From contig NZ_BBJU01000007.1 of the NCBI RefSeq assembly GCF_000739935.1, forward strand, positions 372,001 to 436,000: a stretch of DNA of 64,000 nucleotides, written 5' to 3'. A model generated the notes under the pieces. The model worked only from the letters and a program-made list of their open reading frames with translations. It did not search any database and was not told the origin of the DNA. Position numbers and translations under genes: made by a program. The DNA is from Agrobacterium rubi TR3 = NBRC 13261 (GTDB lineage Bacteria > Pseudomonadota > Alphaproteobacteria > Rhizobiales > Rhizobiaceae). Below are positions 44,895 to 60,628 of the stretch, piece by piece; within the stretch, counting starts at the first letter, position 1, and every line of letters begins with the position of its first letter.

Positions 44895-45273
44895 GAATTC
44901 GAGCCACCGTTCGTCACTAATAAATGTCCATTACGCGCAGAGTTCGCGGCAATTATCATGGCCGCTCCACTCCACAATCGAGTCCCGATGCCCATCGCCG
45001 CTGGGCAAAGCGTGGCCTTGATCGAGCTATGCATGGACCGCTGTATTCCTTACGATTGTGGGCTTTTTGCCCATTTCTTGGCGCTTACGTTGACCCACAA
45101 GAGGCAACTGCACAGACAAAAAGCGTCCCGACAAAAGAGATCTTACGACTTCTAAAAGAGGCTTTACAAATGATATAAAGTGATAACAATAGAAAGTATA
45201 AAGCGACCTCCTGATGAGGGAAACGGCGGCTGAAATCGGTCGTGCAGGGAGGTCGCGCGTACTGGAGGTCGTC
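44895..45273. promoter_or_regulatory. Upstream region of the catabolic operon with repeated TATAAA motifs
   Basis: This gap should contain the promoter of the 15-gene operon. Near its right end GATATAAAGTG (45173-45183) and AGTATAAAGCG (45196-45206) form a direct repeat spaced 23 bases. A related GGTATAAATG occurs upstream of the operon's GntR gene (minus strand, 60715-60706), so these may be operator half-sites. A low-complexity open frame at 44924-45178 has no recognisable product or ribosome-binding site and is not called. CTGGAGG sits before the ATG at 45274. Confidence 0.45.
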
Positions 45274-45951
45274 ATGGAAACGTCATCGCTCACCGCCCGT
45301 CAATTGTACGAGAACGCCAAGGCAAATCCGACGCGCAAGCGTTTTGGGTTCGGTCGCAAGCCGATGCTGATCAACATCGATCTGCAATGTGCCTACACGT
45401 CTTTGGGCGAGTTTGTCTCCGCTTACGAAACCGACCCCCGGCAGCTCGAATACGTCAACACGCTGTCAAATCTCGCCCGCGACAAGGGCCTGCCCGTGAC
45501 CTGGACCTATGTGGCCTACATGGAATCGGGCGAAGATTGCGGCGTCTGGGGCACACGCACGAATACGCCGGATTCCCTGCAGAACATCAAGGTCGGTTCG
45601 CGCAGAGCCGAGTTCGATCCGCGTCTGGAGATTGACCATGTCAAAGACATCATCATGAACAAGCGCATGGCGTCGCCGTTTCATGAGACTAATCTTCAGT
45701 CGCTGATGGTCTGGCACCAGTGTGATACGGTCGTCCTGACGGGCGGTTCGACATCTGGCTGCGTCCGCGCCTGCGTGGTGGATTCGATTTCGCGCGGATA
45801 CAGGGTCATCGTTCCCGAGGAGTGTGTGGCGGACAAGCATGAGAGCCCGCATTTCGCCAATCTCTACGATATCTCCGTGAAGTATGGCGACGTCATCCCG
45901 GTCTCGGATGCCATTGCCTGGTACGAGGCCTATCAGCCGGAGGTTCGCTGA
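45274..45951 (+). CDS. Isochorismatase-fold cysteine amidohydrolase (N-carbamoylsarcosine amidase/half-amidase type)
   Basis: A 225-residue cytoplasmic hydrolase. The catalytic triad is visible: D36 in NIDLQCAY, K130 in IMNKRMAS and C163 in GGSTSGCVRAC. The closest described relatives by these motifs are N-carbamoylsarcosine amidase, maleamate amidase and related enzymes that release ammonia, or ammonia plus CO2, from amides. As the first operon gene it probably removes nitrogen from a ring-opened substrate made by one of the next two enzymes. ATG at 45274 follows GGAGG by six bases; an earlier in-frame ATG at 45214 lacks a site. Confidence 0.85.
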   Translation: METSSLTARQLYENAKANPTRKRFGFGRKPMLINIDLQCAYTSLGEFVSAYETDPRQLEYVNTLSNLARDKGLPVTWTYVAYMESGEDCGVWGTRTNTPDSLQNIKVGSRRAEFDPRLEIDHVKDIIMNKRMASPFHETNLQSLMVWHQCDTVVLTGGSTSGCVRACVVDSISRGYRVIVPEECVADKHESPHFANLYDISVKYGDVIPVSDAIAWYEAYQPEVR

Positions 45952-45952
45952 G

Positions 45953-46900
45953 ATGGCCGCTGAAGACACCGCCATGAAATCGGATCTGGGGCTCTACGAT
46001 TATCTGCCCTGGCCCAACCGCCCGAAGATCGTCTGGCCCGGCAACAAGAAGATCGCCGTCTGGATTGCGCCGAACATAGAATTCTACGAATACAACCCGC
46101 CCAACAACCCGACCCGTACACCCTGGGCGCGGCCAAACCCGGATGTTCTGCAATATTCCCATCGCGATTACGGCAACCGCGCCGGTTGGCAACGGATGAT
46201 GGCGGCGATGGACAAGGCGGGTTTTCGCGGCTCTGTCTCGCTCAATGTCGCGCTCTGCGATCACCACCCTGAAATCATCAAGGCCTGTGCGGATCGTGGC
46301 TGGGAGTTCTTTTCCCACGGTATCTACAACACGCGCTATGTCTATAATCTCGATATCGAGCAGGAACGCGCTGTTATCCGCGATGCCTTCGATACGGTGC
46401 GCAAGCACACCGGTCAGGAACTGGCTGGATGGCTCTCGCCGGCACTGTCCAACAATTTCTGGACGATGGACATTCTGTCGGAAGCGGGCATTCAATACAC
46501 CTGCGACATGTTTCATGACGACCAGCCAATGCCGGTGAAGGTCAAGTCCGGCAAGCTGATTTCTATGCCGTACTCGCTCGAGATGAACGATGTCATCGTT
46601 TACAACAGCCAGAAGGTCACGCCGCGCCACTATGGCGAAATCATCAAGCGGCAGTTCGATCAGCTTTACAAGGAAGGCGATGAGAGCGGCACGGTCATGT
46701 GCATTCCGCTGCATCCCTATCTCGTAGGCCAGCCGCATCGCATCGACGCCTTTGCCGAAGCCATCGAATATATCGCGGGACATGACGGCGTTTGGCAAAC
46801 GACAGGCCGCGAAATCGCTGCCGCCTATCACGCCAGCGGTGTCTATGACGCCATGAGTGCTGCCATGGTCGCCCATAATTCCGGGAAGGGAGCGCGCTGA
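45953..46900 (+). CDS. PuuE-type polysaccharide-deacetylase-fold amidohydrolase, paralogue 1
   Basis: A 315-residue protein of the NodB/polysaccharide deacetylase superfamily in the allantoinase (PuuE) and cyclic-imidase branch. The typical deacetylase Asp-Asp motif is absent; the strand instead reads APNIEFYEYN (about 39-48). Histidine motifs FFSHGIYN, GWLSPALS and CIPLHPYLV are present. Enzymes of this branch open ring amides such as allantoin, succinimide or maleimide. It has no signal peptide, so it does not act on cell-wall sugars. One base separates it from the amidohydrolase, and it overlaps the next gene by one base. Confidence 0.82.
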   Translation: MAAEDTAMKSDLGLYDYLPWPNRPKIVWPGNKKIAVWIAPNIEFYEYNPPNNPTRTPWARPNPDVLQYSHRDYGNRAGWQRMMAAMDKAGFRGSVSLNVALCDHHPEIIKACADRGWEFFSHGIYNTRYVYNLDIEQERAVIRDAFDTVRKHTGQELAGWLSPALSNNFWTMDILSEAGIQYTCDMFHDDQPMPVKVKSGKLISMPYSLEMNDVIVYNSQKVTPRHYGEIIKRQFDQLYKEGDESGTVMCIPLHPYLVGQPHRIDAFAEAIEYIAGHDGVWQTTGREIAAAYHASGVYDAMSAAMVAHNSGKGAR

Positions 46901-47823
46901 TGTCTATGCCTGAAGAGTATCTCAAATACCCTGCTCGTCATTATGGCATGGATCATGATCGCTATGCGTGGAGCGACTTGTTCACCCGCAAGCCGATCAC
47001 ATGGCCCGATGGTGCACGTATCGCACTCTCCATCGTCACCCATGTACAGCATTTTCCGCTCGATATGCCGTCCAAGCCCTTCAAGGCACCGGGCGCTTTG
47101 TCCATGCCTTACCCGGATTTTCGCTATTACACGAACCGTGACTATGGAAATCGCATCGGCATTTTCCGCATTCTCAAGCTGCTGGCGGAAAAAGAGCTGG
47201 AAGTCAGCTTCGCCATCAACGGCGTGATTGCCTCGCGTTATCCGGCACTGATCGAGGCCGTCGTCAGAGGCGGGCATGAGATCATCGCGCATGGTCTGGA
47301 TATGGGAAAGGTCCATCACTCCGGTCTTGGCGAAGACGAGGAAAACGCAATTATTGCCGAGGCTTTGAGCCTGCTTCGCAAAGCAAGCGGACAGAAGGTC
47401 GAGGGCTGGTTGTCGCCGGGCCGTGCGCAGGGGTTCAACACGCCCGATCTTCTGGCGCGCAACGGGATCGCCTACAGCCTTGATTGGGCAAATGACGACC
47501 TTCCTTACGAGATGCAGACGAAAAACGGTTCGCTGCTGGCCATGCCCATGGCTTACGAGACCGATGACCGTGTGGTGGCAGACGAATATTTCCAGTCGGA
47601 AGCCGAATGGGTGCAGCAGGTCAAGGACCGGTTCGATGTGCTGTACCGCGAAAGTGCGCAATATGGTGGTCGCGTCATGAGCCTGCCGCTGCACAGCTGG
47701 GTGTCTGGCATGCCGTATCGCGTTGAATATCTGCGTGAAGCACTGGATTACATCCTGTCGCATGAAGGGGTGTGGAACGCACCCGCAGGTGACATCTGCA
47801 CGGCGTTCCGTGCCGCTGGCTGA
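46900..47823 (+). CDS. PuuE-type polysaccharide-deacetylase-fold amidohydrolase, paralogue 2
   Basis: A 307-residue relative of the preceding protein with the same order of motifs (IIAHGLDMG, GWLSPGRAQ, LPLHSWV). The first active-site strand reads VTHVQHFPLD, where paralogue 1 has APNIEFYEYN, so the two differ exactly where metal or substrate is bound. They may open different rings, act one after the other, or form a heteromer. The start ATG overlaps the preceding stop codon (TGATG), which implies coupled translation. Confidence 0.82.
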   Translation: MSMPEEYLKYPARHYGMDHDRYAWSDLFTRKPITWPDGARIALSIVTHVQHFPLDMPSKPFKAPGALSMPYPDFRYYTNRDYGNRIGIFRILKLLAEKELEVSFAINGVIASRYPALIEAVVRGGHEIIAHGLDMGKVHHSGLGEDEENAIIAEALSLLRKASGQKVEGWLSPGRAQGFNTPDLLARNGIAYSLDWANDDLPYEMQTKNGSLLAMPMAYETDDRVVADEYFQSEAEWVQQVKDRFDVLYRESAQYGGRVMSLPLHSWVSGMPYRVEYLREALDYILSHEGVWNAPAGDICTAFRAAG

Positions 47824-47860: not shown

Positions 47861-49267
47861 ATGGCGCAAGCAGCCGCACCGCGCACAATGTTGGGCAAAA
47901 TCTGGGATGAGCACGAAATATTGCGGCATCCAGCAGGGCCGTCGCTGCTTTATATCGACCGCGATATGATCCACGAGGGCAGCTTCCATGCCTTTGCCGA
48001 TCTTAAGCGGCGTAGCTTGAAGCCACGGCGTCCGCAGCAGATTTTCGGTGTTGCCGACCATTATGTGCCGACACTGGGGCGAACATCGCGCGATGCGGCA
48101 AGCCCGGCTATTGCCCACATGATCGACACCTTCGATGAAAACATGGAATGGGGCGGCATGCGCCATTTCGGACTGTCGAGCCGCGAGCAGGGCATCGTCC
48201 ATGTCGTGGCACCGGAACAAGGCATCACGCTGCCGGGCCTGACCATCGTCTGTTCCGATAGCCATACATCAACGCAAGGGGCGCTCGGTGCCATTGCCTT
48301 CGGTATCGGCCAATCCGAAAATGCCCATGTTCTGGCCACCCAGACGCTGTGGCAGTCTCGGCCCAAGACGATGCGCGTCACCATTGACGGCGTGCTGGGG
48401 CAGGGTGTCACGGCAAAGGATGTCATGCTGGCGCTGATCGCGAAGATTGGTGCAGCGGGTGCCGGCGGCCATGCCATCGAATTTGCCGGGCAGGTGGTAA
48501 GAGACCTTTCCATCGAGGGCCGGCTGACGCTTTGCAATATGTCGATCGAGGCTGCTGCCCGTTTCGGCATGGTCGCGGCAGACGAAACGACGTTTGCCTA
48601 TGTCAGAGGTCGCCATTTTGCACCATCGGAACAGGAATGGGACGGTGCCGTTTCGCACTGGCGCACGCTTTCCAGCGATACCGACGCTTTCTTTGACGCG
48701 GACGTGAGAATGGACGGTGCGGATATTGCGCCGATGGTGACGTGGGGAACAAGCCCGGAGGACGCCGTTTCGATCAATGGGCGCGTGCCAGATCCGACGA
48801 GTTTCGATAGTTCCGACAAGCGCAAGGCGGCGACGAAATCACTTGAGTATATGGAGCTGGCACCCGGCACCCCGCTGGATGGCCTGAAGCTGGACAAAGT
48901 CTTCATCGGCTCCTGCACCAACAGCCGGATCGAGGATCTGCGGGCGGCGGCCTCCATTCTCAAAGGTCGCAAGGCGATGATCCCGGCCATCGTCGTGCCG
49001 GGATCGACACATGTCAAAGAGCAGGCGGAAGCCGAGGGCATCGCCCGCACGTTCCGTGAGGCAGGCTTTGAATGGCGCGAGTCGGGCTGTTCCATGTGCG
49101 CGGCAATGAACGGTGACGTGGTTGGCCCTGGCGAACGGTGCGCCTCTACCTCCAACCGCAATTTTGTCGGTCGTCAGGGCCCCGGTGCGCGCACCCATCT
49201 GGTCAGCCCCGCCATGGCGGCTGCCGCTGCCATCAGCGGCTGTCTGACCGACGTGCGCAGGATGTGA
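47861..49267 (+). CDS. Aconitase-family hydro-lyase large subunit (LeuC-like)
   Basis: A 468-residue iron-sulfur protein. The cluster cysteines are C352 (GSCTNSR), C410 and C413 (GCSMC), and the family signature ITLPGLTIVCSDSHTSTQG is at 122-140. LeuC proteins make isopropylmalate isomerase, but close homologues in other contexts hydrate maleate, citraconate or 2,3-dimethylmaleate. The surroundings (amidase, ring-opening hydrolases, C-C lyase, ABC importer) argue against leucine biosynthesis. Seven bases separate it from its small subunit. Confidence 0.88.
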   Translation: MAQAAAPRTMLGKIWDEHEILRHPAGPSLLYIDRDMIHEGSFHAFADLKRRSLKPRRPQQIFGVADHYVPTLGRTSRDAASPAIAHMIDTFDENMEWGGMRHFGLSSREQGIVHVVAPEQGITLPGLTIVCSDSHTSTQGALGAIAFGIGQSENAHVLATQTLWQSRPKTMRVTIDGVLGQGVTAKDVMLALIAKIGAAGAGGHAIEFAGQVVRDLSIEGRLTLCNMSIEAAARFGMVAADETTFAYVRGRHFAPSEQEWDGAVSHWRTLSSDTDAFFDADVRMDGADIAPMVTWGTSPEDAVSINGRVPDPTSFDSSDKRKAATKSLEYMELAPGTPLDGLKLDKVFIGSCTNSRIEDLRAAASILKGRKAMIPAIVVPGSTHVKEQAEAEGIARTFREAGFEWRESGCSMCAAMNGDVVGPGERCASTSNRNFVGRQGPGARTHLVSPAMAAAAAISGCLTDVRRM

Positions 49268-49277
49268 GGGGACAATG

Positions 49278-49892
49278 ATGAAAGCATTCACTCGCGAAAC
49301 ATCAACGGCTGTCGCCATACCCGGCGTCAACTGCGACACGGACCAGATCATTCCCGGACGCTTTTTGAAGGCGGACCGTGCGCAGGGCTATGGCCAGTTC
49401 CTGTTCCATGACATCAGGCGCGACGAGCATGGGGAAATCGACCCTGCCTTCCCGCTGAACAAGGCGGGTGCCGATGCCGCGACCATTCTTCTTGTCGAGG
49501 ATAATTTCGGTTGCGGATCGTCGCGCGAGGGTGCTGTCTACGCGCTGGTGGATCACGGCATTCGCTCTGTCATCGGGCCGAGTTTTGGCGACATCTTCTT
49601 CAACAATGCGCTGAAAAACGGGCTCGTGCCGGTTCGCCTGACCGCTGAGCATTGTGATGCGCTGGCTGAACATCTCGCCCGCTTTCCCGACGCGGAGGTT
49701 ACGGTTGATCTTGAGGCTGGCGAGCTTGTCTTGCCCGGTAATCTCGGCACTCATCCCATTGCCATCGATCCCTTCGCGCGGGACTGCATCTTACGCGGTC
49801 TGGACGAGATCGAGATGACATTCACATACATGGAGCAGATCACCGCCTTCGAGACGGATCGAATGGCGTCGCATTCCTGGCTGGGCCGTTGA
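49278..49892 (+). CDS. Aconitase-family hydro-lyase small subunit (LeuD-like)
   Basis: A 204-residue swivel-domain subunit that completes the LeuC-like enzyme. Typical segments are VNCDTDQIIPGRFLK (about 16-30), EDNFGCGSSREGAVYAL and GPSFGDIFFNNALKNGL. ATG at 49278 is six bases from GAGGGG; the ATG three bases earlier is an alternative. In LeuD-like proteins the residues after DQI and the GCGSSRE loop contact the substrate, and both are conserved here. Confidence 0.87.
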   Translation: MKAFTRETSTAVAIPGVNCDTDQIIPGRFLKADRAQGYGQFLFHDIRRDEHGEIDPAFPLNKAGADAATILLVEDNFGCGSSREGAVYALVDHGIRSVIGPSFGDIFFNNALKNGLVPVRLTAEHCDALAEHLARFPDAEVTVDLEAGELVLPGNLGTHPIAIDPFARDCILRGLDEIEMTFTYMEQITAFETDRMASHSWLGR

Positions 49893-49948
49893 CGGGCGGA
49901 CCAGCGAGTTTCTTTTGCCGTCTCATAAAAAAACTGGGAGCATAAAAA

Positions 49949-51166
49949 ATGACATTCAAAATCGAACGACGCGACCTTTTAAAAGTCTCTGGTGCCCTTG
50001 CGGTCAGCCTGGCTGCACCATCCATCCTGCGCGCGCAGGCCGCCACCGTGAAGGTTGGCGTCATCGAGCCACTGACGGGCAACCTCGCCTATAACGGTAC
50101 TCAAAGTGCTGCCGGAGCAAAGTTCGCCGCAGAAGCGATCAATGCCGCAGGCGGCATCAAGTCCATGGGCGGCGCGAAAATCGAGCTCGTCATCGTCGAT
50201 GCACAGAGCCGCCCGGAAGCCGCGGCCTCCGCTGTCGATACGCTGATCCAGGCCGATGCCTGCGCCTTCACCGGCGCGACAGCATCCGCACTCGGCCTTG
50301 CGTCCTCGCAGGCAGCAGCAAAGTACAATCTCGCGCAGGTCTTCTCCATCGGTACCGCCGAAACGGTTGTCCAGCGCGGCCTGCCGAATGTTTTCCGCTT
50401 CACGCCGGGCGTCAACAAATGCACGAGCGTCGCGCTTGAAAACCTCAAGCTACTCAATGCAGGCGCTGGCAATTCCATCAAGACAGCGGCCATCGTCCAT
50501 GAGGACGGTCCGTTCGGCTCCAACATGGCGAAAATTCTGGCTGAGCAGCTGCCGAAGCAGGGTATCGAAGTTGTCGAAACAATCTCGCACCCGACACCTC
50601 AGCGCGATTTCTCCAACATCGCGCTCCGCGTCAAGGCATCGAAAGCCGATATTCTTATCCCTTCGAACTACATCAACGAATACACATTGATGGCGCGTGC
50701 GCTGAACCAGCAGCGCGTTGAACTCAAGGCCATCTATTCCATCCTTGGTGGTGCTGCATCCAACATCAAGTTCGTTCGCGAGAACAAGGAAGTCGCCCAA
50801 TATGTGATGGACTGCAATCATTGGTACGATCCGTCCAAGGATCTGTCCAAGGCACTCGCCGCCAGTGTTGCCGCTGCCAAGCTGGACCTGACCTACGACG
50901 TCATGGTGTCCTATGCGACGATACAAGTCATTGCTGACGCTCTGGAGCGCGGCGCTTCGGCTGATCGCCAGAAGATGATCGAAGCCTTGGCCGCATCGAC
51001 CTTCGACCAGTCCATCATGCCTTATGGACCGACGAAGTTCGTCAATGGCGACAATGTCAACTCGCAGCCGGTGAACACGCAGATCCGTGGTGACAAGATC
51101 GAACTGGTCTTCCCGAAGGAATATGCCACGGCCGAAGCGGTCTTCCCGATCCCAGCCAAAAACTGA
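49949..51166 (+). CDS. Branched-chain/amide-type ABC transporter substrate-binding protein, Tat-exported
   Basis: A 405-residue periplasmic binding protein of the Leu/Ile/Val-urea-amide (HAAT) family. The N terminus ERRDLLKVSGALAVSLAAP carries a twin-arginine motif, cleavage near RAQA, and the mature part starts VKVGVIEPLTGNLAYNGTQ. Tat export suggests folding before export. Its place inside the catabolic operon suggests it delivers the operon's own substrate. A hairpin follows before the permease genes. Confidence 0.88.
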   Translation: MTFKIERRDLLKVSGALAVSLAAPSILRAQAATVKVGVIEPLTGNLAYNGTQSAAGAKFAAEAINAAGGIKSMGGAKIELVIVDAQSRPEAAASAVDTLIQADACAFTGATASALGLASSQAAAKYNLAQVFSIGTAETVVQRGLPNVFRFTPGVNKCTSVALENLKLLNAGAGNSIKTAAIVHEDGPFGSNMAKILAEQLPKQGIEVVETISHPTPQRDFSNIALRVKASKADILIPSNYINEYTLMARALNQQRVELKAIYSILGGAASNIKFVRENKEVAQYVMDCNHWYDPSKDLSKALAASVAAAKLDLTYDVMVSYATIQVIADALERGASADRQKMIEALAASTFDQSIMPYGPTKFVNGDNVNSQPVNTQIRGDKIELVFPKEYATAEAVFPIPAKN

Positions 51167-51174
51167 CACGGTCT

Positions 51175-51206
51175 CGCCCCCATGGACGCGGATGTCCCTG
51201 GGGGCG
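51175..51206 (+). other. Hairpin between binding-protein and permease genes
   Basis: CGCCCCCA and TGGGGGCG form a perfect 8-base stem with a 16-base loop, followed by CTCTTC. Such structures often keep expression of a binding protein above that of its permease. Confidence 0.5.
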
Positions 51207-51235
51207 CTCTTCAAACGACAGAGAGGCGAGCCCTG

Positions 51236-52105
51236 ATGTCAAGTCTGATCTTACCTGCCGTGTTGAGCGGCCTGATGATGGGAGCCGTCTATGCGCTTGT
51301 GGCGCTGGGCCTCACCCTGATTTACGGCGTGCTCCACATCATCAACTTTGCGCATGGCAGCCTGTTGATGCTGGCGCTCTACGCCGTCTATTTCCTTTAC
51401 TTCTATTTTGGCGTCGATCCCTATCTCGCCATCCCGCTCGTTCTTCCGGCCTTCTTCGCGCTCGGTTACGTGTTGCAGCGGTTCCTGATTGCGCCGATGA
51501 GCAGCGGTTCGGAACAGAACGTTCTTCTCATCACCCTCGCGGTGTCGATGATCATCGACAATCTGGCGCTCTACTTCTGGACGTCGAATACGCGCACGGC
51601 TGATATCGCCTATGCCTACGACACTGTCGAAGTGCTGGGTGCATACCTGCCGCTTGGTCGTGTCATCGCTTTCGGTGCAGCCCTTGCAGTCGCGCCTTTG
51701 CTCTGGTGCTTCATGGCCTATACCCGCACAGGCTCTGCTATTCGCGCCGTTGCAATCGAAAAGCGCGGTGCAGAACTCGTCGGCATCGATGTCAACCACA
51801 CCTATGCCATCTGTTTCGGCATCGGCACCGCCTGTGTCGCACTGGCCGCCTGCCTGCTGTTGCCCACCTTCTACATCACCCCGCAGGTCGGCTACACCTT
51901 CGTTTTGGTCGCCTTCACGACTGTGGTTCTGGGTGGAATGGGTAGCCTGCTGGGTGCCTTGGTTGCCGGTCTGCTGCTCGGTGTCATCGAGTCTCTCTGC
52001 GGTCTCTTCCTTGGCGAAAGCCTGGGCCAGATCGGCATCTTCCTCGCTTTCATCCTCATCCTTCTCTTCAAACCGTCAGGGCTTCTCGGGAGGGCAAGGA
52101 CATGA
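51236..52105 (+). CDS. Branched-chain/amide-type ABC transporter permease (LivH-like)
   Basis: A 289-residue inner-membrane permease of the LivH family with about eight hydrophobic segments. The segment YGVLHIINFAHGSLLMLALY (about 29-48) and the cytoplasmic SAIRAVAIEKRGAELVGID loop are diagnostic. ATG at 51236 is chosen because the product then begins with the usual hydrophobic segment. It overlaps the next permease by four bases (ATGA). Confidence 0.9.
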   Translation: MSSLILPAVLSGLMMGAVYALVALGLTLIYGVLHIINFAHGSLLMLALYAVYFLYFYFGVDPYLAIPLVLPAFFALGYVLQRFLIAPMSSGSEQNVLLITLAVSMIIDNLALYFWTSNTRTADIAYAYDTVEVLGAYLPLGRVIAFGAALAVAPLLWCFMAYTRTGSAIRAVAIEKRGAELVGIDVNHTYAICFGIGTACVALAACLLLPTFYITPQVGYTFVLVAFTTVVLGGMGSLLGALVAGLLLGVIESLCGLFLGESLGQIGIFLAFILILLFKPSGLLGRART

Positions 52106-53079
52106 GACCTCAATCCATCGGGCAGATTGCCCTCATCGCAGCGGCTCTCGCCTATCTCTTCGGGGTCTATTTCGCCTCATCGCCGGTGTGGATGGGCTTT
52201 ACCATCAATGCGCTGATCGTCGCGGTCGTCGCCCTGTCGTGGAACATCACCGGCGGTTTCGGCGGCCTGTCGTCCTTCGGTCATGCTGCCCTTTACGGCA
52301 CCGGTGCCTATGCATCCGCCATCCTTCAGGTGCAGTATGGCGTCAACGCATGGGTCGGCTTCGGGGCTGGCATTCTTGCCGGTGCCGTCATGGGTGCCTT
52401 CATCGGCGCTCTGGCGTTCCGTTATGGCCTGAAGGGTTCCTATTTTGCGCTCGTTACGCTGGCCTTTGCCGAAGTGCTGCGCATCTGCGCATCGTCCTTT
52501 GACTTTACCGGCGGCGGCAGCGGGCTGCAATTGAAGCTGGCACCAGGCGTGGCCAACCTGCAATTCAACGACCGCGCCGTTGCCTACACTGCTCTTCTGG
52601 TCGTGGTGGCACTGGTCATGGCGCTGACGGCTCTCATCAAATATTCCCGCTTCGGTGCCTATCTCATAGCCGTCAGGGAAAACGAGGATGCCGCCCGCGC
52701 GCTCGGCATCGACACCTACAAGATCAAGGTGCAGGCGATGGCCATCTCGGGTGCTTTCGGTGGCTTGGCTGGCGTTCTCTATCTCCAGCTTTGGCTCTTC
52801 ATCGACAGCAACGTGGTCTATGGCAGCGCCGTCTCCATCGAGGCGCTGATCGGCCCGATTATCGGCGGTGCCGGAACCATCTGGGGTCCGCTTCTCGGCA
52901 CTCTCGGCCTGCATCTCCTCGGTGAAGGCGCAAAACATCTTCTGCCCAATGCGCCCGGTTTGAATTTCGTGCTCTACGCGATTGTGCTGATCTGCGCGCT
53001 GCGCTTCCTGCCCAACGGTCTTGTTGGCCTTGCCGGCAAGCTCGGCACCTTCAAGAAGAAGGAGGACGACAATGCTTGA
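52102..53079 (+). CDS. Branched-chain/amide-type ABC transporter permease (LivM-like)
   Basis: A 325-residue inner-membrane permease of the LivM family. WNITGGFGGLSSFGHAALYG (about 47-66) and the cytoplasmic IAVRENEDAARALGIDTYK loop are typical. With the LivH-like protein it forms the channel. It overlaps the following ATPase gene by eight bases. Confidence 0.9.
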   Translation: MRPQSIGQIALIAAALAYLFGVYFASSPVWMGFTINALIVAVVALSWNITGGFGGLSSFGHAALYGTGAYASAILQVQYGVNAWVGFGAGILAGAVMGAFIGALAFRYGLKGSYFALVTLAFAEVLRICASSFDFTGGGSGLQLKLAPGVANLQFNDRAVAYTALLVVVALVMALTALIKYSRFGAYLIAVRENEDAARALGIDTYKIKVQAMAISGAFGGLAGVLYLQLWLFIDSNVVYGSAVSIEALIGPIIGGAGTIWGPLLGTLGLHLLGEGAKHLLPNAPGLNFVLYAIVLICALRFLPNGLVGLAGKLGTFKKKEDDNA

Positions 53080-53812
53080 GGTTCGTAATCTTTCCAAAAG
53101 CTTCGGCGGCTTGAAGGCTGTCACCGACGCTTCGCTCGATGTGCCCGAAGGCTCCATTGTCGGACTTCTCGGCCCGAACGGCGCAGGCAAGACGACCTGC
53201 TTTACGATGATTGCCGGTTTTACCAAGGCCGACGAAGGCACGGTGCGCTTTCAGGGCAAGAACATCACCGGCCTTGCGCCGCACAGCATCTGCGCGCTGG
53301 GCATGATCCGCACCTTCCAGATTGTCCAGCCCTTTGCGGGGCTCACGGTTCAGGAAAACATCGCTGTTGGTGCCTATCTCCACCACCACGACCGTCGCGA
53401 AGCCATGTCTGTGGCGCGGGATGTGGGCAAGCGGCTGGGCATGGGCGCGATGCTTGATCGCCCCGCATCTTCGCTGACGATTGCCGGGCGCAAACGGCTG
53501 GAGCTGGCGCGGGCGCTGGCAACGGGAGCGAAGCTGCTGCTGCTCGACGAGGTCATGGCCGGATTGATCCCCTCCGAAATTACCGAGATCGTCGGCATCA
53601 TCAGAAAAATCCGCGAGGAAGGGCACACCTTCCTGATGATCGAACACGTCATGCAGGCTGTGATGCAGCTGGCCGAAACGGCCTATGTGCTGAACCAGGG
53701 CAAGATGATTGCCCATGGCACGCCGCGTGAACTCGTGAAGGACCCGTCCGTGGTAGAAGCCTATCTCGGCCACGGTGCCGCAGCGCGGCTGCAGGAGGAA
53801 AACCATGCTTGA
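53072..53812 (+). CDS. Branched-chain/amide-type ABC transporter ATPase (LivG-like)
   Basis: A 246-residue ATPase with Walker A GPNGAGKTT (about 35-43) and Walker B LLLLDEVMAGL. The signature motif reads LTIAGRKRLELARAL instead of an LSGGQ form; this pattern, with DEVMAGL, occurs in one subgroup of LivG proteins, so it need not mean loss of function. The start lies inside the end of the LivM-like gene, and it overlaps the LivF-like gene by eight bases. Confidence 0.9.
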   Translation: MLEVRNLSKSFGGLKAVTDASLDVPEGSIVGLLGPNGAGKTTCFTMIAGFTKADEGTVRFQGKNITGLAPHSICALGMIRTFQIVQPFAGLTVQENIAVGAYLHHHDRREAMSVARDVGKRLGMGAMLDRPASSLTIAGRKRLELARALATGAKLLLLDEVMAGLIPSEITEIVGIIRKIREEGHTFLMIEHVMQAVMQLAETAYVLNQGKMIAHGTPRELVKDPSVVEAYLGHGAAARLQEENHA

Positions 53813-54506
53813 TATCAAGGGTATCCGCGCTGGCTACGGCTCGATGAGCGTGCTGCAAGGCATCGATATGAGCGTCGAAAATGGCGAAATCGTCGCTTTG
53901 CTGGGCTCCAACGGGGTCGGCAAGACCACGCTGAACAACGTCATATCGGGTTTCATCAAGCCCAGCGCCGGATCGATCTCTTTCAAGGGCGTGACCATCA
54001 CCGGCAAGAATGCGCGGGATATCGTGGCGCTTGGCATCGCCCATGTGCCGGAAGGGCGAAAGGTTTTCCCAAACCTCTCGGTTGGCGAAAATCTCAAGCT
54101 CGGCGCGTTTCGCCGTGCCAGCAAAAACACCAAGCAGAACTTCGAGCGCATCTGCGAAATCTTTCCAAGGCTTCGCGAAAGAATGAACCAGCTGGCGGGC
54201 ACGCTGTCTGGCGGTGAACAGCAAATGCTGGCAATCGGTCGCGGCATGATGTCGGAGCCGGAGCTGCTCATTCTGGATGAACCGTCGCTCGGTCTTTCCC
54301 CCATCATGGTCGAAGAAATGTTCGGGCTGATCACCAAGATCAATGCTGACGGTGTTGCCGTGCTGCTGGTCGAGCAGAATGTCATGCAGTCGCTGGGTGT
54401 TGCCAAGCGTGCCTATGTCATCGAGCAGGGGCGTTTCGTCATGCAGGGAGAGGCCGCAACCCTGCTGGCCGATCCGCAGTTGCGCCAGGCCTATCTCGGA
54501 ATGTGA
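53805..54506 (+). CDS. Branched-chain/amide-type ABC transporter ATPase (LivF-like)
   Basis: A 233-residue ATPase with Walker A GSNGVGKTT, a canonical signature LSGGEQQMLAIGRGM and Walker B LLILDEPSLGLSP. It is the second ATPase of the HAAT importer, ending a five-gene transporter block inside the enzyme operon. A GC-rich hairpin follows at 54512. Confidence 0.91.
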   Translation: MLDIKGIRAGYGSMSVLQGIDMSVENGEIVALLGSNGVGKTTLNNVISGFIKPSAGSISFKGVTITGKNARDIVALGIAHVPEGRKVFPNLSVGENLKLGAFRRASKNTKQNFERICEIFPRLRERMNQLAGTLSGGEQQMLAIGRGMMSEPELLILDEPSLGLSPIMVEEMFGLITKINADGVAVLLVEQNVMQSLGVAKRAYVIEQGRFVMQGEAATLLADPQLRQAYLGM

Positions 54507-54511
54507 GACGC

Positions 54512-54537
54512 GGCCCCGGATGGAGTGAGCCGGGGCC
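54512..54537 (+). other. Hairpin between the transporter block and the second enzyme block
   Basis: GGCCCCGG and CCGGGGCC form a perfect 8-base stem with a 10-base loop, followed by AATTTA rather than a T run. It lies six bases after the LivF-like stop codon and could act as a partial terminator or processing site. Confidence 0.5.
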
Positions 54538-54562
54538 AATTTACGGAGAAATGGAGAATAGA

Positions 54563-55456
54563 ATGTCCCTTACACGTACCCAACGTCTGCGGCAGTTGCT
54601 CGCAGGCGAACGAGCCCTCATGGCTCCCGGTGTGGTCGATGCCATGTATGCCCGTCTTGTGACAGAAGCCGGTTTCGACGCCATGTATATGACGGGTGCT
54701 GGCACCTCTGCCACGCGGCTTGGCTATCCCGATGTGGGTTTGCTGACGATGACGGAGATGGTCGATAATGCCACCCGCATTGCCGATGCATCCGATATTC
54801 CGCTGATTGCCGATGCCGACAATGGTTTTGGCGGTCCGCTCAATGTGCGGCGCGCCATTCAGCTCTATGAGCGCGGCGGTGTGGCCGCGGTCCATCTGGA
54901 AGATCAGGTCCTGCCAAAGCGCTGCGGCCATCTGGCAGGCAAGCAGATCGTTCCAGTCGAAGACATGGTGGCGAAGGTGAAGGCCGCTGTAGACGCGCGT
55001 ATCGACCAAGATTTCGTCGTCATCGCCCGCACGGATGCGCTGGCGCTGCATGGCCGGAACGCTGCGTTCGACCGTGCGGAAATGTACCGGGAGGCAGGTG
55101 CCGACGTCATCTTCATCGAAAGCCCCGGCCCGGATGACCTGGCGCATATCGCACCGCGCTTCCCCGGCATTCCGCTGCTCTACAACATGGCGACCTCAGG
55201 CAAGACACCCTTTCTCACGCGGTCTGAAATCGAAGCACTGGGCTTCAAGCTCATCATCTACCCCAACTGGCTGCTGCTTTCGGCCTGCGAAGCCGCGCGC
55301 AAGACGCTTCAGGTCTTGAAGACGGAAGAGACCATCGCTTCGGTCGCTCCAAACGTCATGAACTTCAAGGAGTTCTTCGATATGGCGCGGATGCCTGAAA
55401 TTCAAGAACTGGAAGCCCGCTACGGCACCCCGGAAGCAAACCGTACCAGCTATTGA
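54563..55456 (+). CDS. Isocitrate lyase/PEP mutase superfamily C-C lyase
   Basis: A 297-residue TIM-barrel enzyme of the lyase group. The catalytic cysteine loop is KRCGH (119-123, C121), metal-binding carboxylates are in IADADNGFG (D84, D86) and HLEDQ (E113). The cysteine loop points to cleavage of a 2-hydroxy dicarboxylate (methylisocitrate lyase, 2,3-dimethylmalate lyase and relatives) rather than phosphonate chemistry. Together with the LeuC/LeuD-like hydratase it would give a hydrate-then-cleave sequence yielding pyruvate or a related keto acid. GGAGAATAG precedes the ATG at 54563. Confidence 0.87.
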   Translation: MSLTRTQRLRQLLAGERALMAPGVVDAMYARLVTEAGFDAMYMTGAGTSATRLGYPDVGLLTMTEMVDNATRIADASDIPLIADADNGFGGPLNVRRAIQLYERGGVAAVHLEDQVLPKRCGHLAGKQIVPVEDMVAKVKAAVDARIDQDFVVIARTDALALHGRNAAFDRAEMYREAGADVIFIESPGPDDLAHIAPRFPGIPLLYNMATSGKTPFLTRSEIEALGFKLIIYPNWLLLSACEAARKTLQVLKTEETIASVAPNVMNFKEFFDMARMPEIQELEARYGTPEANRTSY

Positions 55457-55472
55457 ACAGGAGATTTGAGCC

Positions 55473-56873
55473 ATGGCAGTGCTATCTGCGGAAGGCGTGA
55501 CGTTCGATTTTGAAATGCCGGTGGTCGTCGTCGGGGCAGGGGCCTGCGGTCTGGTCGCAGCCCTTGCGGCGCATGATGCGGGTCAGGAGGTGATGGTGCT
55601 GGAGCGGGACGAGAATCCCACTGGCTCCACCTCCCTGTCTGCAGGTCTCATTCCCGCACCCTGCACAAGGTTGCAGAAGGAAGCGGGCATTGAGGACAGT
55701 CCAGAACTTTTCGCACAAGACCTTGTTGCCAAAACCCATGACCATACACCCCACGACATGGCGCTGGTTGCGGCACAAACCGCAGGCCCGATGATCGACT
55801 GGTTGATGGATACGCATAAGGTGGAGTTCGAACTGGTCACGGGGTTCACCTATCCCGGCCATTCGCGCCTCCGCATGCATGGCCCCAAAAGCCGGACCGG
55901 TGCCGATCTGCAGCAGTCGCTTCTCTCTGCTGTGTCCAACGCCGATATCGATATCGTTACACATGCGTCGGTCGAAGACCTCTATGTGGATGCGACGGGT
56001 CGCGTGACGGGCGTCCGTTTCCGCCGCCCCGATGGTGCGCTGGAAATGTTGGGCTGCAAGGCACTCGTTCTTGCCTCCTGCGGCTTTGCAGGCGATGTCG
56101 CGCTTGTCCAGAAATACATCCCGGAAATTGCCGATGCCGAGTGCTGCGGCCACCTTTCCAACACAGGCGATGCGGTGAAATGGGGACAGGCAATTGGTGC
56201 CGCGCTTGCCGATATGGGCTCCTATCAGGGACATGGGTCGGTCGCGCACCCCCATGCCTTGCCGTTGACATGGGCCGTCATCACCAAGGGCGGCATTCTT
56301 CTCAACGTGGAAGGTCAACGTTTTTCCAATGAGATGCGCGGCTATTCCGAACACGCCGCTGAAGTCGCTGCGCAACCTGACCACATCGCTTGGGACATCT
56401 ATGATGCCAGGGGCGACGAGGCTGGGATGGGCTTTTACGACTACCGTGAAATCCGCAAGCTGGGTGCCATCAAGACGGCAAACAGTCTGGAAGAACTTGC
56501 CTCCGTCACGGGTCTTTCGCTCGCTGCCATCCGCGAAGAGTTCGAGGCCATCGAAACCTGCGCACGGACCGGCAAGCCCGATCGGTTTGGTCGAAGCTTT
56601 CCGCCAGATCAGATGCTGAGTGCGCCTTATTATGCGGTCAAGGTCAACGGCGCATTGTTCCACACGCAAGGCGGGTTGGTCATCGATGCCGAGGCGCGGG
56701 TGCTGCGCGAAAATGGCACTGTTTTGCCGAACCTTATGGCGGGTGGTGGGGCTGCGCGCGGCGTGTCTGGCGATTCCAATTACGGATATCTCTCCGGCAA
56801 TGGTCTTTTGACGGCGACAGCCTTTGGCCGCTTGGCTGGCATCACAGCTGCGCGGATTGCTTCCGAAAGCTGA
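55473..56873 (+). CDS. FAD-dependent oxidoreductase of the fumarate reductase/ketosteroid dehydrogenase family
   Basis: A 466-residue soluble flavoprotein (FAD_binding_2 family). The FAD-binding GAGACG motif is at about 21-26 (VVVVGAGACGLVAALAA), and the C-terminal FAD segment reads YGYLSGNGLLTATAFGR. There is no signal peptide or heme motif. Relatives reduce or form a carbon-carbon double bond next to a carbonyl or carboxylate, so it could set the saturation level of the dicarboxylate intermediate. Sixteen bases separate it from the lyase gene. Confidence 0.85.
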   Translation: MAVLSAEGVTFDFEMPVVVVGAGACGLVAALAAHDAGQEVMVLERDENPTGSTSLSAGLIPAPCTRLQKEAGIEDSPELFAQDLVAKTHDHTPHDMALVAAQTAGPMIDWLMDTHKVEFELVTGFTYPGHSRLRMHGPKSRTGADLQQSLLSAVSNADIDIVTHASVEDLYVDATGRVTGVRFRRPDGALEMLGCKALVLASCGFAGDVALVQKYIPEIADAECCGHLSNTGDAVKWGQAIGAALADMGSYQGHGSVAHPHALPLTWAVITKGGILLNVEGQRFSNEMRGYSEHAAEVAAQPDHIAWDIYDARGDEAGMGFYDYREIRKLGAIKTANSLEELASVTGLSLAAIREEFEAIETCARTGKPDRFGRSFPPDQMLSAPYYAVKVNGALFHTQGGLVIDAEARVLRENGTVLPNLMAGGGAARGVSGDSNYGYLSGNGLLTATAFGRLAGITAARIASES

Positions 56874-56891
56874 AAACAAGAGGAGGACATG

Positions 56892-57662
56892 ATGAAGAAG
56901 GTTATGGTCATCGTACCGTTTCCCATGGGGCAGGACGATCTCGCCCGCAGGCAAGCGCAGATGAAGGCGGTCGATCTCGGCCCCGGCATCGAGTTTCACT
57001 ATCGCTCGGTGCGGGTTGGGCCGAAGAATTATTCGAGCCAGCACGATATGGCGCTCGCCGATTTCTCGATCCTCGACGCCGGGCTCGATGCCGAGAAAGA
57101 GGGTTTCGACGCTGTCTGCATCGACACCATGTCCGATAGCGGCATGTCGATGCTGCGTTCCGTTCTGACCATCCCTGTCATCGCGCCGGGGCGTCATTCC
57201 ATGCTGATGGCACAGATGCTGGGCGACAAATTCTCGATCCTGATGATGTGGGATCGCTGGAAAATGCTTTATACCAAGACGCTGGGCGAGCTTGGCATGG
57301 AGCATAAATGTGCCTCCATGCGCTCGATTGGCGTGACGCCCGACAATAAGAGCTTGCTTGCCGGCAAGGAAGACGAAGTCTTCCCGCTTCTGCTGGACGC
57401 CGCGAAGAAATGCGTTGAGGATGGCGCGCAGGTGCTGATCCTGGGCTCCACGACCATGCACGAGGCACATTCCTGGCTCTCCGCCCGCATCGGCGTTCCC
57501 GTCATCAATCCCGGTCCGCTCACCTACAAGCTGGCGTCCATCGCACTCGATCTGAACCTCACCCACAGCAAGGCGACATGGCCGACACCGCTGTCGCCCA
57601 AGCATGACATGATCCGTGCCATCGGCGCTGCCGGTGCGGCCTATCTGGAGGGCAACCAATGA
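56892..57662 (+). CDS. Asp/Glu/hydantoin racemase-fold protein lacking both catalytic cysteines, paralogue 1
   Basis: A 256-residue protein of the Asp/Glu/hydantoin racemase superfamily. Where the active enzymes have the first catalytic cysteine (C-x-x-D-x-G), this protein has T79 in DTMSDSG, and at the second (G-C-x-x-M) it has S186 in GSTTM. Racemase, maleate isomerase or decarboxylase chemistry through cysteine is therefore not expected. Other cysteines at 76, 140 and 174 are shared with the neighbour but lie outside the motifs. ATG at 56892 is preferred because AGGAGG is five bases upstream. Confidence 0.85.
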   Translation: MKKVMVIVPFPMGQDDLARRQAQMKAVDLGPGIEFHYRSVRVGPKNYSSQHDMALADFSILDAGLDAEKEGFDAVCIDTMSDSGMSMLRSVLTIPVIAPGRHSMLMAQMLGDKFSILMMWDRWKMLYTKTLGELGMEHKCASMRSIGVTPDNKSLLAGKEDEVFPLLLDAAKKCVEDGAQVLILGSTTMHEAHSWLSARIGVPVINPGPLTYKLASIALDLNLTHSKATWPTPLSPKHDMIRAIGAAGAAYLEGNQ

Positions 57663-58435
57663 CCCGCATTCTAGTCATCGTTCCCTTCGCGCTGGATGCT
57701 GAGGGCGTGCGCAATCGCGAGGCGCAGTCGCAATATGTACCGCTGCCTGCGGATTGGGAACTGACCTACCGCCCCGTCACCTGCGGCCCGACATCCTTCA
57801 TGTCTCCGCATGACTGGGGCCTGATGGACCTTGCCATCTTCGAGGCCGGATGCAAGGCGCAAGACGAAGGCTTTGACGCCGTCTGCATCGACACGATGTC
57901 GGATAGCGGCATGGTTATGCTCCGCTCCGTCCTCTCCATTCCCGTCATCGGTGCAGGCAAGGCCTCCATGCTTTACGCACTGACGCTCGGCGGCAAATTC
58001 TCGGTGCTGGCACAATGGGAACCGGCGCTGCCGCGATACCGCAAGGCCATCCGCGAATATGGTTTCGACCGCCAATGCGCCTCGGTGCGCAGCTTCGATC
58101 AGCCGCCGGATTTCTCCAACCTGCTGGGTGGCAAGGAAGATAGCGTCTTCCCACGCATGCGCGATGTTGCCATGCGCTGCATCGAGGAAGATGGCGCTGA
58201 GGTCATTTGCCTTGGGTCGACGACCATGCATCAGGCTGGCGAGTACCTCGCTGCGAACCTGCCCGTGCCCGTCGTCAATCCCGGTCCACTGACCTACAAG
58301 CTGGTCGAAACATTTCTGGCGCTCGGCCTTACCCACGGCAGGGACGTCTATCCGCCTCCGGTCGAGCCACGGCTGGATATGCTGCACGCCATGATGAAGG
58401 CGGGAGCGGAAGCTGAGGGCAAGGTGAAAGGCTGA
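57659..58435 (+). CDS. Asp/Glu/hydantoin racemase-fold protein lacking both catalytic cysteines, paralogue 2
   Basis: A 258-residue paralogue of the preceding protein, overlapping it by four bases. It has the same substitutions: T79 in DTMSDSG and S187 in GSTTM. The segments DAVCIDTMSDSGM and VNPGPLTYKL are almost identical in the two, while the N-terminal substrate-facing region differs. Two adjacent, co-translated copies suggest a heterodimer or two related substrates. The conserved Thr/Ser pair suggests retained, altered chemistry rather than decay. Confidence 0.85.
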   Translation: MTRILVIVPFALDAEGVRNREAQSQYVPLPADWELTYRPVTCGPTSFMSPHDWGLMDLAIFEAGCKAQDEGFDAVCIDTMSDSGMVMLRSVLSIPVIGAGKASMLYALTLGGKFSVLAQWEPALPRYRKAIREYGFDRQCASVRSFDQPPDFSNLLGGKEDSVFPRMRDVAMRCIEEDGAEVICLGSTTMHQAGEYLAANLPVPVVNPGPLTYKLVETFLALGLTHGRDVYPPPVEPRLDMLHAMMKAGAEAEGKVKG

Positions 58436-59844
58436 TGATGCAAAGCGCCGCCACATCTCTGGCTTTAGCTGCCGCCGGGACCAATGTCATGGAGGCTGCG
58501 TCGCCCATGCGCGCGGCATATCGCAATTTTGTACTGGATACGATTGCGGTGATGGCGGCGGGAGCGGCGCATCCATCCATATCATCCGCGCGCCAAGCCT
58601 TCGTCATGACCGGCGGATCCGGAAAGTCTTCTGCCTTGGGAATCGCAGAGCCTTGTCCGGCGGGCATTGCGGGTCTCGTCAATGGAATGGCGATGACGGT
58701 GCTGCAATTGCAAGACGGCCATCGTCGGGCGCGGGGTCATCCCATGAGCCACGTCCTGCCCGCCGCACTTGCGGTTGCCGAGGAGACAGGCGCATCGACG
58801 GATGCCTTTCTCAACGCAATCGTGGCAGGCTACGAAGTTTGCGCGCGGATCGGTTCCTCTCTGGGTGGCATGCAGCCCTTGCTCCACGATACTGGAACCT
58901 TTGGCTGCATCGGTGCTGCTGTCGCCGCCGCTTATCTGTTCGGACGAACCTCAGAAGAGCATGGTCGTGCTGCATTGATAGAAGCAGCGATCGGTAACGC
59001 CGCTTCTGTCACGCTCTTTCCTTTTCGCGATACCTGCATGGAGGGTGCGATGACCCATCATCTTTTCGTGGGTTTGGGTGTGCAGAACGGAATTGCTGCT
59101 GCTCGCAGTGCGCAAGCAGGGTTTTTGCCATCTGACGCCACGCTTGAGCGGTTTTTCGGGCCGCGTGCTGGCGACGCTTTCAATCCGGCGCTCTTGACCG
59201 AGGGTATCGATGATAATGGTCAATGGTCTTCCGACGAAATAACCAACGCCTATTTGAAATGGCATCCTGTCTGTGCCCATCTCAGCCCCATGCTGGATTG
59301 TATCGAACTCCTGCGCGAGCGCCTGGGTGGCTTCGAACTCGCCCACCTTCGAAATGTGCGGATCGAGGTGTATTCGACCGCGCTTCAATACGATTCCCCA
59401 AATCCGGCGAGTGATCTGGCTGCGAGGTTCAGTTTCAGACATGCTGCGGCCCTAGCCCTGCGCTTCGGCCCTTTGCGACACGATGGATTTCACCAAGAGC
59501 GTCTCGAACACCCGGATGTGGTTGATCTCGTCAGCAAAACCAGTCTGGTGATCGATAACGCCTTTACCGCGCTCTACCCGGCAAAGCGACCGGCGCGGGT
59601 AACATTGACCTTTTCGGATGGAAGCGAGGAAAGTGCGGAGGTACTGATCCCCAAAGGTGACGGCGAGTGCGCGCTTTCGCGCCGCGATGTCGATCTGAAG
59701 GCGCGACGTTTGATCAATACGGTCTGGGATGAGAGGCAAAGCGACCTGTTGGTGGCGTTGGTTGATCGTCTAGAAAACGATCCGCCTGCGGACTTTATGC
59801 ATGAAATAGGCCACTTGCTCAGACGTCCGATACGAATGGCATGA
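58435..59844 (+). CDS. MmgE/PrpD family protein
   Basis: A 469-residue protein of the 2-methylcitrate dehydratase (PrpD)/MmgE family, which also contains aconitate decarboxylase and other dicarboxylate or tricarboxylate lyases. Family segments include FVLDTIAVMAAGAAHPS (about 32-48), the histidine-containing QLQDGHRRARGHPMSHVLP (about 92-110) and ITNAYLKWHPVCAHLSPMLD. It is the last gene of the operon, overlapping the preceding stop codon. Its reaction may be dehydration or isomerisation of a branched hydroxy acid. Confidence 0.86.
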   Translation: MMQSAATSLALAAAGTNVMEAASPMRAAYRNFVLDTIAVMAAGAAHPSISSARQAFVMTGGSGKSSALGIAEPCPAGIAGLVNGMAMTVLQLQDGHRRARGHPMSHVLPAALAVAEETGASTDAFLNAIVAGYEVCARIGSSLGGMQPLLHDTGTFGCIGAAVAAAYLFGRTSEEHGRAALIEAAIGNAASVTLFPFRDTCMEGAMTHHLFVGLGVQNGIAAARSAQAGFLPSDATLERFFGPRAGDAFNPALLTEGIDDNGQWSSDEITNAYLKWHPVCAHLSPMLDCIELLRERLGGFELAHLRNVRIEVYSTALQYDSPNPASDLAARFSFRHAAALALRFGPLRHDGFHQERLEHPDVVDLVSKTSLVIDNAFTALYPAKRPARVTLTFSDGSEESAEVLIPKGDGECALSRRDVDLKARRLINTVWDERQSDLLVALVDRLENDPPADFMHEIGHLLRRPIRMA

Positions 59845-59848: not shown

Positions 59849-60628
59849 TCAATTTCCGAGCGAGAAATCCTTGCCGTCTTCTCGTTTCAGCGACACACGA
59901 TATTCGTAACGGTCGGCCCGGTAAAATATTTCGGCGGCGTAGAAAGGCGTGAGTTCGGCGTTGAAGAACAGTCGGTTGACGAGCATGAGCGGCGCGCCGA
60001 TGGGTATCTCCAGATGCTTGGCCGCGTAGTCATCGGCCAGTGTCGCTGTCAGCGTCTGTTCGACCTTCTCAACGACAGCGCCCGCCTTTTGAACAAGGTC
60101 AATCATATTGGTCGAGGCTAGGTCCTGACGTTTGAGCGTCTGCCCGATCTCAGGCAACAAATAAGCAATGGAGAGGGAATAGGGTCGGCGATCCAGCGAT
60201 CGGACGCGCACGGCCCGAACGAGCTCTGTGGTTGGGGAAACCCCCATCTGCTCGCAGATCCGGGGTGGCGCCTCGCCCATGTCGAGACTGATGGCCTTCA
60301 GCCGCGTGCTTTTGCCAACCGCGTTCAGATAGCTGAACAGGCCATTGATGTTCGACACGACAGCGCGGTTAAGTTTATTCTCTTTAGATCGATCCGTGAC
60401 ATAGGTGCCGCGCCCGCGCGTGCGGGTCACCAGCCCCTCGGCCGTCAACATCTCCATGGCCTTGCGGATGGTGATGCGGCTGACGGAAAAGCTTTCCGAC
60501 AGTTCCGCTTCGCTGGGCACGGCCACATCGCCGGGATAATAGCCCTTCAAGATACGCTCGCGCATGACCGCATACACCCGATGATAAAGGGGGGTCGGAG
60601 AATGAGTGTCGCGCATGAATAAGGGCAT
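59849..60628 (-). CDS. GntR/HutC-family (UTRA) transcriptional regulator
   Basis: A 259-residue regulator with an N-terminal winged helix (PSEAELSESFSVSRITIRKA, about 38-57, then EGLVTRTRGRGTYV) and a C-terminal UTRA ligand-binding domain. It converges on the operon with only four bases between stop codons, and is the only regulator near it, so it very likely controls the operon and senses a pathway compound. Repeated TATAAA-type motifs occur both upstream of this gene and upstream of the operon. ATG at 60616 is an alternative start. Confidence 0.88.
   Translation of the reverse strand: MPLFMRDTHSPTPLYHRVYAVMRERILKGYYPGDVAVPSEAELSESFSVSRITIRKAMEMLTAEGLVTRTRGRGTYVTDRSKENKLNRAVVSNINGLFSYLNAVGKSTRLKAISLDMGEAPPRICEQMGVSPTTELVRAVRVRSLDRRPYSLSIAYLLPEIGQTLKRQDLASTNMIDLVQKAGAVVEKVEQTLTATLADDYAAKHLEIPIGAPLMLVNRLFFNAELTPFYAAEIFYRADRYEYRVSLKREDGKDFSLGN

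Follow-up and report, generated by a model that had tools for sequence, protein, structure and literature searches.

Two Adjacent Racemase-Fold Proteins with Threonine and Serine in Place of Both Catalytic Cysteines Belong to a Distinct Subfamily and Lie in a Probable Catabolic Operon

Results

A Gene Run around RacA and RacB

The window analyzed here, by which we mean the whole 64,000-nucleotide stretch of Agrobacterium rubi TR3 DNA, contains a run of plus-strand genes of approximately 15 kb (45214-59844) that includes two adjacent genes for racemase-fold proteins, RacA and RacB. The genes of this run, and the regulator gene that converges on its end, are the following:

45214..45951, plus strand: isochorismatase-family amidase; best solved relatives 4l07/4l08 (isochorismatase-family hydrolase, which we take to be maleamate amidase) and N-carbamoylsarcosine amidohydrolase
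45953..46900, plus strand: PuuE-like protein, copy 1, polysaccharide-deacetylase family, which may hydrolyze a cyclic imide or hydantoin (the coding model starts at 45953; the search query ran from 45884)
46900..47823, plus strand: PuuE-like protein, copy 2, polysaccharide-deacetylase family
47861..49267, plus strand: LeuC-type hydro-lyase large subunit, probably a catabolic paralogue
49275..49892, plus strand: LeuD-type hydro-lyase small subunit
49949..54506, plus strand: Liv-type ABC transporter, with a profile-matched binding protein and, judged by sequence and gene order, two permeases and two ATPases
54551..55456, plus strand: lyase of the PEP mutase/isocitrate lyase family, closest among solved structures to 2,3-dimethylmalate lyase 3fa3 (the coding model starts at 54551; the search query ran from 54503)
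55473..56873, plus strand: FAD_binding_2 flavoprotein of the flavocytochrome c fumarate reductase/urocanate reductase type
56889..57662, plus strand: RacA, 257 amino acids, a Thr/Ser-type member of PF01177 that may instead start at 56892
57659..58435, plus strand: RacB, 258 amino acids, RacA paralogue with the same Thr/Ser site
58435..59844, plus strand: MmgE/PrpD family protein, closest among solved structures to iminodisuccinate epimerase 2hp3
59849..60628, minus strand: GntR/UTRA regulator, convergent, at the operon end

The operon probably degrades a small nitrogen-containing ring compound. Its LeuC-type subunit is probably catabolic because a higher-scoring leuC is present elsewhere in the genome, and its lyase is of the methylisocitrate/dimethylmalate type. 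The idea that the PuuE-like proteins act on imides comes from a chain of likenesses described in PMC9304392, wherein the cyclic imidase HxnM resembles HpPgdA, whose closest characterized relative is PuuE. The imide assignment is weak because copy 2 is closer to the allantoinase PuuE (3cl6, 2.4e-30) than to the imidase-like 3qbu (1.2e-10).

The same window also holds a type VI secretion cluster at 21192-43438, with TagF, IcmF/TssM, VipA, VipB, a ClpB/ClpV-type ATPase and Hcp recognized by Pfam. At the end of this cluster, a Rap1a-family immunity gene (42527-42925) is followed by a Tae4 amidase effector gene (42938-43438).

RacA and RacB are 51% identical over 250 columns, and both match the PF01177 profile above its curated cut-off of 31 (RacA, 5.5e-29 and 101.9 bits; RacB, 4.5e-28 and 98.9 bits). 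The two open reading frames with Thr and Ser motifs that had been reported in a preliminary description of this DNA are present; residue numbers in that description count from the second ATG of RacA (56892), ours from the first (56889). An AGGAGG sequence (56881-56886) lies 2 nt upstream of the first ATG and 5 nt upstream of the second, and initiation at 56892 is plausible because the spacing of the ribosome-binding site is better there. The stop of RacA and the start of RacB share 4 bp (ATGA) and the MmgE/PrpD gene is able to begin on the final base of RacB, so these three genes are probably co-translated.

Both Catalytic Cysteines Are Replaced

An AlphaFold2 model of RacA alone (pLDDT 94.9, pTM 0.91) has the two-domain racemase fold of the PF01177 superfamily. 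Its nearest folds are those of the Klebsiella allantoin racemase KpAllR (3qvk/3qvj; Z 27.5, the highest value, over 239 residues) and 5lfd (Z 27.1), and further matches include the hydantoin racemase 2eq5 (Z 23.0) and OpaE (9qbx; Z 22.7). Scores are Z 16.7 for arylmalonate decarboxylase (3dg9 and 3ixl, 16.7 and 16.6) and Z 15.6 for maleate isomerase.

A site of two thiols is the textbook mechanism of this superfamily. The corresponding motifs of RacA, numbered from the first ATG, are C77-I-D-T80-M-S-D-S-G and G-S187-T-T-M-H, and the RacB counterparts of T80 and S187 are T79 and S187. In HMMER alignments, RacA T80 falls on C79 of KpAllR (Cys in 3qvj, Ser in 3qvk), and S187 falls on C184; the 3qvj chain was numbered by hand from residue numbers in PMC12661438. 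RacA shares with KpAllR not only the fold but also Asp83 and Gly85 of the first motif and Gly186 and Met190 of the second. Where allantoin/hydantoin racemases require two cysteines, however, RacA carries Thr80/Ser187 and RacB Thr79/Ser187. Hence the profile alignments to solved structures agree with the preliminary claim that both catalytic cysteines have given way to Thr and Ser in both proteins. An origin of the motif by chance or misalignment is ruled out by the structure alignments and by the homologue counts given below.

The cysteine that the preliminary description had named as a possible occupant of the catalytic position (its C76, our C77) aligns at the sequence level with a Val of KpAllR. 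It would also lie in a strand (75-78) ahead of the loop in the RacA model, and some members with an otherwise intact site have V, I or G in its place. At the level of sequence, we therefore rejected it as a shifted catalytic cysteine. Also rejected was the notion that loss of both cysteines is unique to these proteins, because other PF01177 members in our sample lack both (A/G, H/G, N/G, T/E and G/Q, although these alignments are distant and less sure).

Residues that contact the substrate have changed as well. The ureido-binding Thr118/Thr119 of KpAllR, as given in PMC12661438, correspond by hand mapping from the alignment to Met119/Met120 in RacA and to Ala/Gln in RacB. Most RacA-like copies have Met at position 120, whereas RacB-like copies have Gln there; L047 and five extra copies have Gln after Thr and match neither pattern. 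This one pocket difference may mean that RacA and RacB take differing substrates or stereoisomers. In the residue comparison described below, position 11, which from the offset of the aligned ranges would correspond to Asn12 of KpAllR, is Phe in 68 of 72 Thr/Ser rows and Asn in the 11 alignable rows of 24 Cys/Cys rows.

Comparison with Known Members of the Superfamily

Maleate cis-trans isomerase (4fq7, 2xed) shares the fold (Z 15.6) and uses two catalytic cysteines, but RacA has no Cys at the positions aligned to those of KpAllR, which presumably are equivalent to the cysteine positions of maleate isomerase. Loss of a single cysteine, by contrast, is already known in the superfamily, as described for EcL-DER, RacX and arylmalonate decarboxylase. 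The last of these shares the fold and lacks the first cysteine (Gly74), but has Cys188 and the motifs LMGTSLSF and ILLSCGGL where RacA has IDTMSDSG and ILGSTTMH (PMC4996985 / PMC8142540). By this motif comparison Ser187 occupies the Cys188 position, and the decarboxylase hallmark (Cys188, Gly74, ILLSCGGL) is absent from RacA. OpaE belongs to the same allantoin/hydantoin-racemase branch, and its pocket, according to PMC12661438, is hydrophobic where that of KpAllR is polar; nevertheless, OpaE retains both cysteines (Cys90 and Cys199), whereas RacA and RacB have neither.

A precedent for a Thr at the first catalytic position is the L-Asp/Glu racemase EcL-DER, which also has the superfamily fold (Z 13.4 and 14.0). 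According to PMC12838360, a Thr83/Cys197 pair supports activity in EcL-DER, as does Ala79/Cys193 in RacX; the C197S change leaves EcL-DER with no racemase activity, and C193S strongly lowers that of RacX. Ser would thus be a poor stand-in for the second thiol, and it is Ser that RacA and RacB have at the position where EcL-DER retains Cys197, so that the Thr/Cys pair of EcL-DER is not found in them. These data bear on the view that RacA and RacB are conventional racemases or epimerases in which Thr/Ser serve as weak acid/base in place of Cys, as Thr83 of EcL-DER does at one position. The racemase fold, the tolerance of EcL-DER and RacX to replacement at one position, and a group of Thr/Cys relatives (see below) are all consistent with such a view. 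Yet here both cysteines are gone and several more positions are altered, the second Cys matters in both precedents, and some loci hold a Cys/Cys racemase besides. We consider a conventional racemase improbable.

The Thr/Ser Site Is Old and Conserved

Two genome searches with RacA (101 and 289 genomes) provided an unseeded sample of 50 listed copies with 44% identity or more, among them the two of the window; it comprises 37 copies, counted after removal of four rows that repeated the window's genes, and 13 more, and all 50 were inspected. The catalytic pair is Thr/Ser in 47, Ser/Ser in one (L048) and Ala/Ser in two (L189, L190). Ser187 and T188 are present in 50/50 copies, Y213 in 49/50, D79, T189 and H191 in 48/50 each, and T80 and N207 in 47/50 each. 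The exceptions include Asn for D79 (L187, L188), Tyr for H191 (L185, L186) and Ala for T80 (L189, L190), and L185-L190 are extra copies in multi-copy genomes. The proposal in the preliminary description that the replacement is old and conserved is therefore well founded. Among the distant copies inspected (at most 40% identity, and part of those listed) the Thr/Ser pair was not found; three second genes of 38-40% identity (L039-L041) have D in place of the Thr and Q or R in place of the Ser.

The invariance of Ser187 and Thr188, which Thr80 does not share, would suit a hydrolase or lyase with Ser187 (or Thr80) as the nucleophile and His191 as a helper, and hydrolases are among the neighboring genes. 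However, candidates for both ring and amide hydrolysis are already present in the operon, and we know of no member of the racemase fold that is a serine hydrolase. A nucleophilic serine thus seems a poor prospect.

A larger scan, which covered 84,980 species genomes, yielded 228 relatives, and 80 loci were retained from these. With gene calls by a codon-usage model, which missed at least one copy (in L105), 74 of these loci contain 109 family members. In this collection together with the window's two proteins, T is found in 105/110 and S in 106/111, although the scan was partly seeded with the peptide AVCIDTMS, which inflates the counts for T80, D79, C77 and S82. In a separate draw of 398 genomes across the phylum, in which at most 6 candidates were scored per genome, at least 6 genomes, counting that of the window, hold a protein of this kind at an E value of 1e-40 or better.

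To these counts can be added a comparison of 72 Thr/Ser rows (loci L001-L147) with 24 Cys/Cys rows, both below 90% identity; because the rows were selected on the catalytic pair, T80 and S187 are constant here by design. Other positions separate the two groups as follows:

D79: 72/72 Thr/Ser rows, 3/24 Cys/Cys rows (mostly A)
T188: 72/72 Thr/Ser rows, 3/24 Cys/Cys rows (mostly A)
T189: 72/72 Thr/Ser rows, 0/24 Cys/Cys rows (mostly G)
H191: 71/72 Thr/Ser rows, 0/31 unfiltered Cys/Cys rows (mostly A in the 24 filtered rows)
N207: 72/72 Thr/Ser rows, 3/24 Cys/Cys rows (mostly D)
Y213: 72/72 Thr/Ser rows, 0/24 Cys/Cys rows (mostly V)
G209: 72/72 Thr/Ser rows; Cys/Cys rows mostly V

With few exceptions, then, new residues accompany Thr/Ser, and from the sequences the site looks retooled, not decayed. 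The highly conserved set reads Asp79-Thr80, Ser187-Thr-Thr-Met-His191, Asn207-Pro-Gly and Tyr213.

A quick tree of 84 rows (below 80% identity, drawn partly from the seeded scan, with the 13 later-inspected copies outside it) places 46 Thr/Ser rows and one Ser/Ser row on one side of a branch with an SH-aLRT value of 98, a support measure used here without bootstrap. Two Thr/Cys rows and several rows with a degenerate site lie beside this clade and not inside it. Thr/Cys copies occur among the relatives in L052, L053 and L191-L195, and it is possible that this group, two members of which adjoin the clade, represents an intermediate state. RacA and RacB are members of a distinct Thr/Ser subfamily within the allantoin/hydantoin-racemase branch of PF01177.

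Gene Neighborhoods of Distant Relatives

Genes of the operon recur near distant members of the subfamily. Of the 80 loci, 56 have a RacA below 70% identity, and 39 of these also extend over at least 12 kb. Searches of these 39 by tblastn found the lyase in 19, the flavoprotein in 17, PrpD in 26, PuuE-like genes in 17, LeuC in 11 and the amidase in 8. By comparison, 20 regions of 19-20 kb around Cys/Cys racemases contain one PuuE-like gene and none of the other five; these regions are all from the window's own class, so that taxonomy differs between the two groups, and related loci cannot be counted as independent. Among the 39 distant loci, five show no pathway gene of the six and seven show one alone, and of 24 near loci, 17 gave no tblastn match for PrpD. 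The transporter does not tell the groups apart because Liv-type ATPases also match, weakly, near 15 of the 20 Cys/Cys racemases.

The gene kit around the Thr/Ser gene varies by lineage. Among the 80 loci, HyuB-type genes are found in 12, HyuA-type genes in 12 and both in 11, and other loci carry additional isochorismatase-type amidases, an amidohydrolase or a carbon-nitrogen hydrolase. Five loci of Comamonadaceae and Burkholderiales (L122, L125, L129, L136 and L139) mostly have a PhyH-type dioxygenase with SnoaL-like and tautomerase-like proteins, and neither the lyase nor LeuCD was found within their available flanks.

Three conclusions are very likely correct, and far safer than any claim about the reaction: T80/S187 stand in for the catalytic cysteines, the clade is a coherent one, and its genes are linked to this catabolic kit.

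Pairs, Single Copies and Partner Genes

By the gene calls, 39 of 74 loci have a single family member, although some contigs are short and the second copy in L105 was missed. Adjacent pairs occur at 34 loci, with the 4-bp overlap in 22 of them. Single copies are common, and an obligate pair, such as the heterodimer that the preliminary description put forward as a possibility, is not a rule of the family.

In 5 of the 34 adjacent pairs (L095, L096, L097, L102 and L147; about 10770-11500), the second copy lacks D79, T80, S187, H191 and N207 together. Judged from these substitutions, such pairs could possibly combine a catalytic RacA with a non-catalytic partner subunit. The second genes of L039-L041, with D and Q or R, resemble these degenerate partners. 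We did not take the partners as evidence for joint loss of the site or for covariation, because the tree places them beside the clade and the residue set was perhaps never present in them. Their existence does lend something to the view that RacA and RacB are binding or regulatory proteins devoid of catalysis. Both window copies have the full residue set, however, and many polar residues are highly conserved across 47 rows below 80% identity and 72 rows below 90%, which is unlike decay. A purely non-catalytic function is accordingly hard to credit.

At four loci (L101, L114, L124 and L131) a Cys/Cys racemase gene is found together with the Thr/Ser gene, which suggests a division of labor. The Thr/Ser gene of L101 is broken into two open frames.

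Discussion

Our search of titles and abstracts in the open-access literature on imidases, hematinic acid/methylvinylmaleimide degradation, replaced cysteines and this gene combination found no description of the clade or of the operon. The preliminary description had suggested that the pair is a different type of enzyme, and the operon and the changed allantoin-contact residues do point to one; the reaction itself we can only infer. From the ring-racemase fold, the loss of both thiols and the gain of Asp79 and His191, our tentative preference, held at somewhat below even confidence, is that RacA and RacB are cofactor-free proton-transfer isomerases in the catabolism of a cyclic imide or hydantoin-like compound.

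A pathway can be drawn up from family membership. The substrate would be taken up via the Liv-type transporter, and its ring would be opened by the PuuE-like proteins, or by HyuAB in some other species. The isochorismatase-type enzyme would then hydrolyze an amide, releasing ammonia and leaving a substituted dicarboxylate. The fumarate-reductase-like flavoprotein might carry out a redox step, LeuCD would hydrate, and the lyase of the PEP-mutase/isocitrate-lyase family would then cleave a carbon-carbon bond. In such a scheme RacA and RacB might epimerize the ring compound or its first product, or shift its double bond. Asp79 and His191, both of which adjoin the former cysteines in sequence, could form the acid/base pair, and Ser187 and Thr80 could hold an enolate-like intermediate. 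The Asp/His proposal is weakened by the natural exceptions noted above (D79N, H191Y and T80A), and Asp79, which directly precedes Thr80, may face away from the pocket.

Alternatively, RacA and RacB might act after ring opening, on an open-chain dicarboxylate or half-amide, in the manner of a cis-trans isomerase or decarboxylase but non-covalently. Maleate isomerase and arylmalonate decarboxylase have the same fold, the operon encodes an isochorismatase-family amidase, LeuCD and a lyase with relatives that handle substituted maleates and malates, and the flavoprotein is of the fumarate reductase type. The ring racemases, however, are much nearer in fold (Z 27.5 versus about 16), and neither Cys188 of the decarboxylase nor the two cysteines of the isomerase have a counterpart in RacA. 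In addition, LeuCD-type enzymes take cis acids directly, so a cis-trans isomerase is not obviously needed. We regard action on an open-chain acid as unlikely, if worth keeping in view.

A more far-reaching picture is that of a thiol-free rebuilt racemase fold (a hydroxyl pair with Asp/His/Asn) whose reaction would be new to the superfamily. It would be one step of a so far undescribed route by which alkyl-substituted cyclic imides are opened and converted to pyruvate and a short carboxylic acid. This fuller picture is speculative and, as a whole, rather doubtful. As a guess, its substrates might be maleimides or succinimides left from tetrapyrroles.

Plasmid records annotate such proteins as racemase-family proteins or HupH, names that are probably wrong for the reaction. 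The Thr/Ser clade provides a concrete case in which to study how the chemistry of a cofactor-free fold can change, and the operon points to a nutrient pathway that can be searched for by growth tests.
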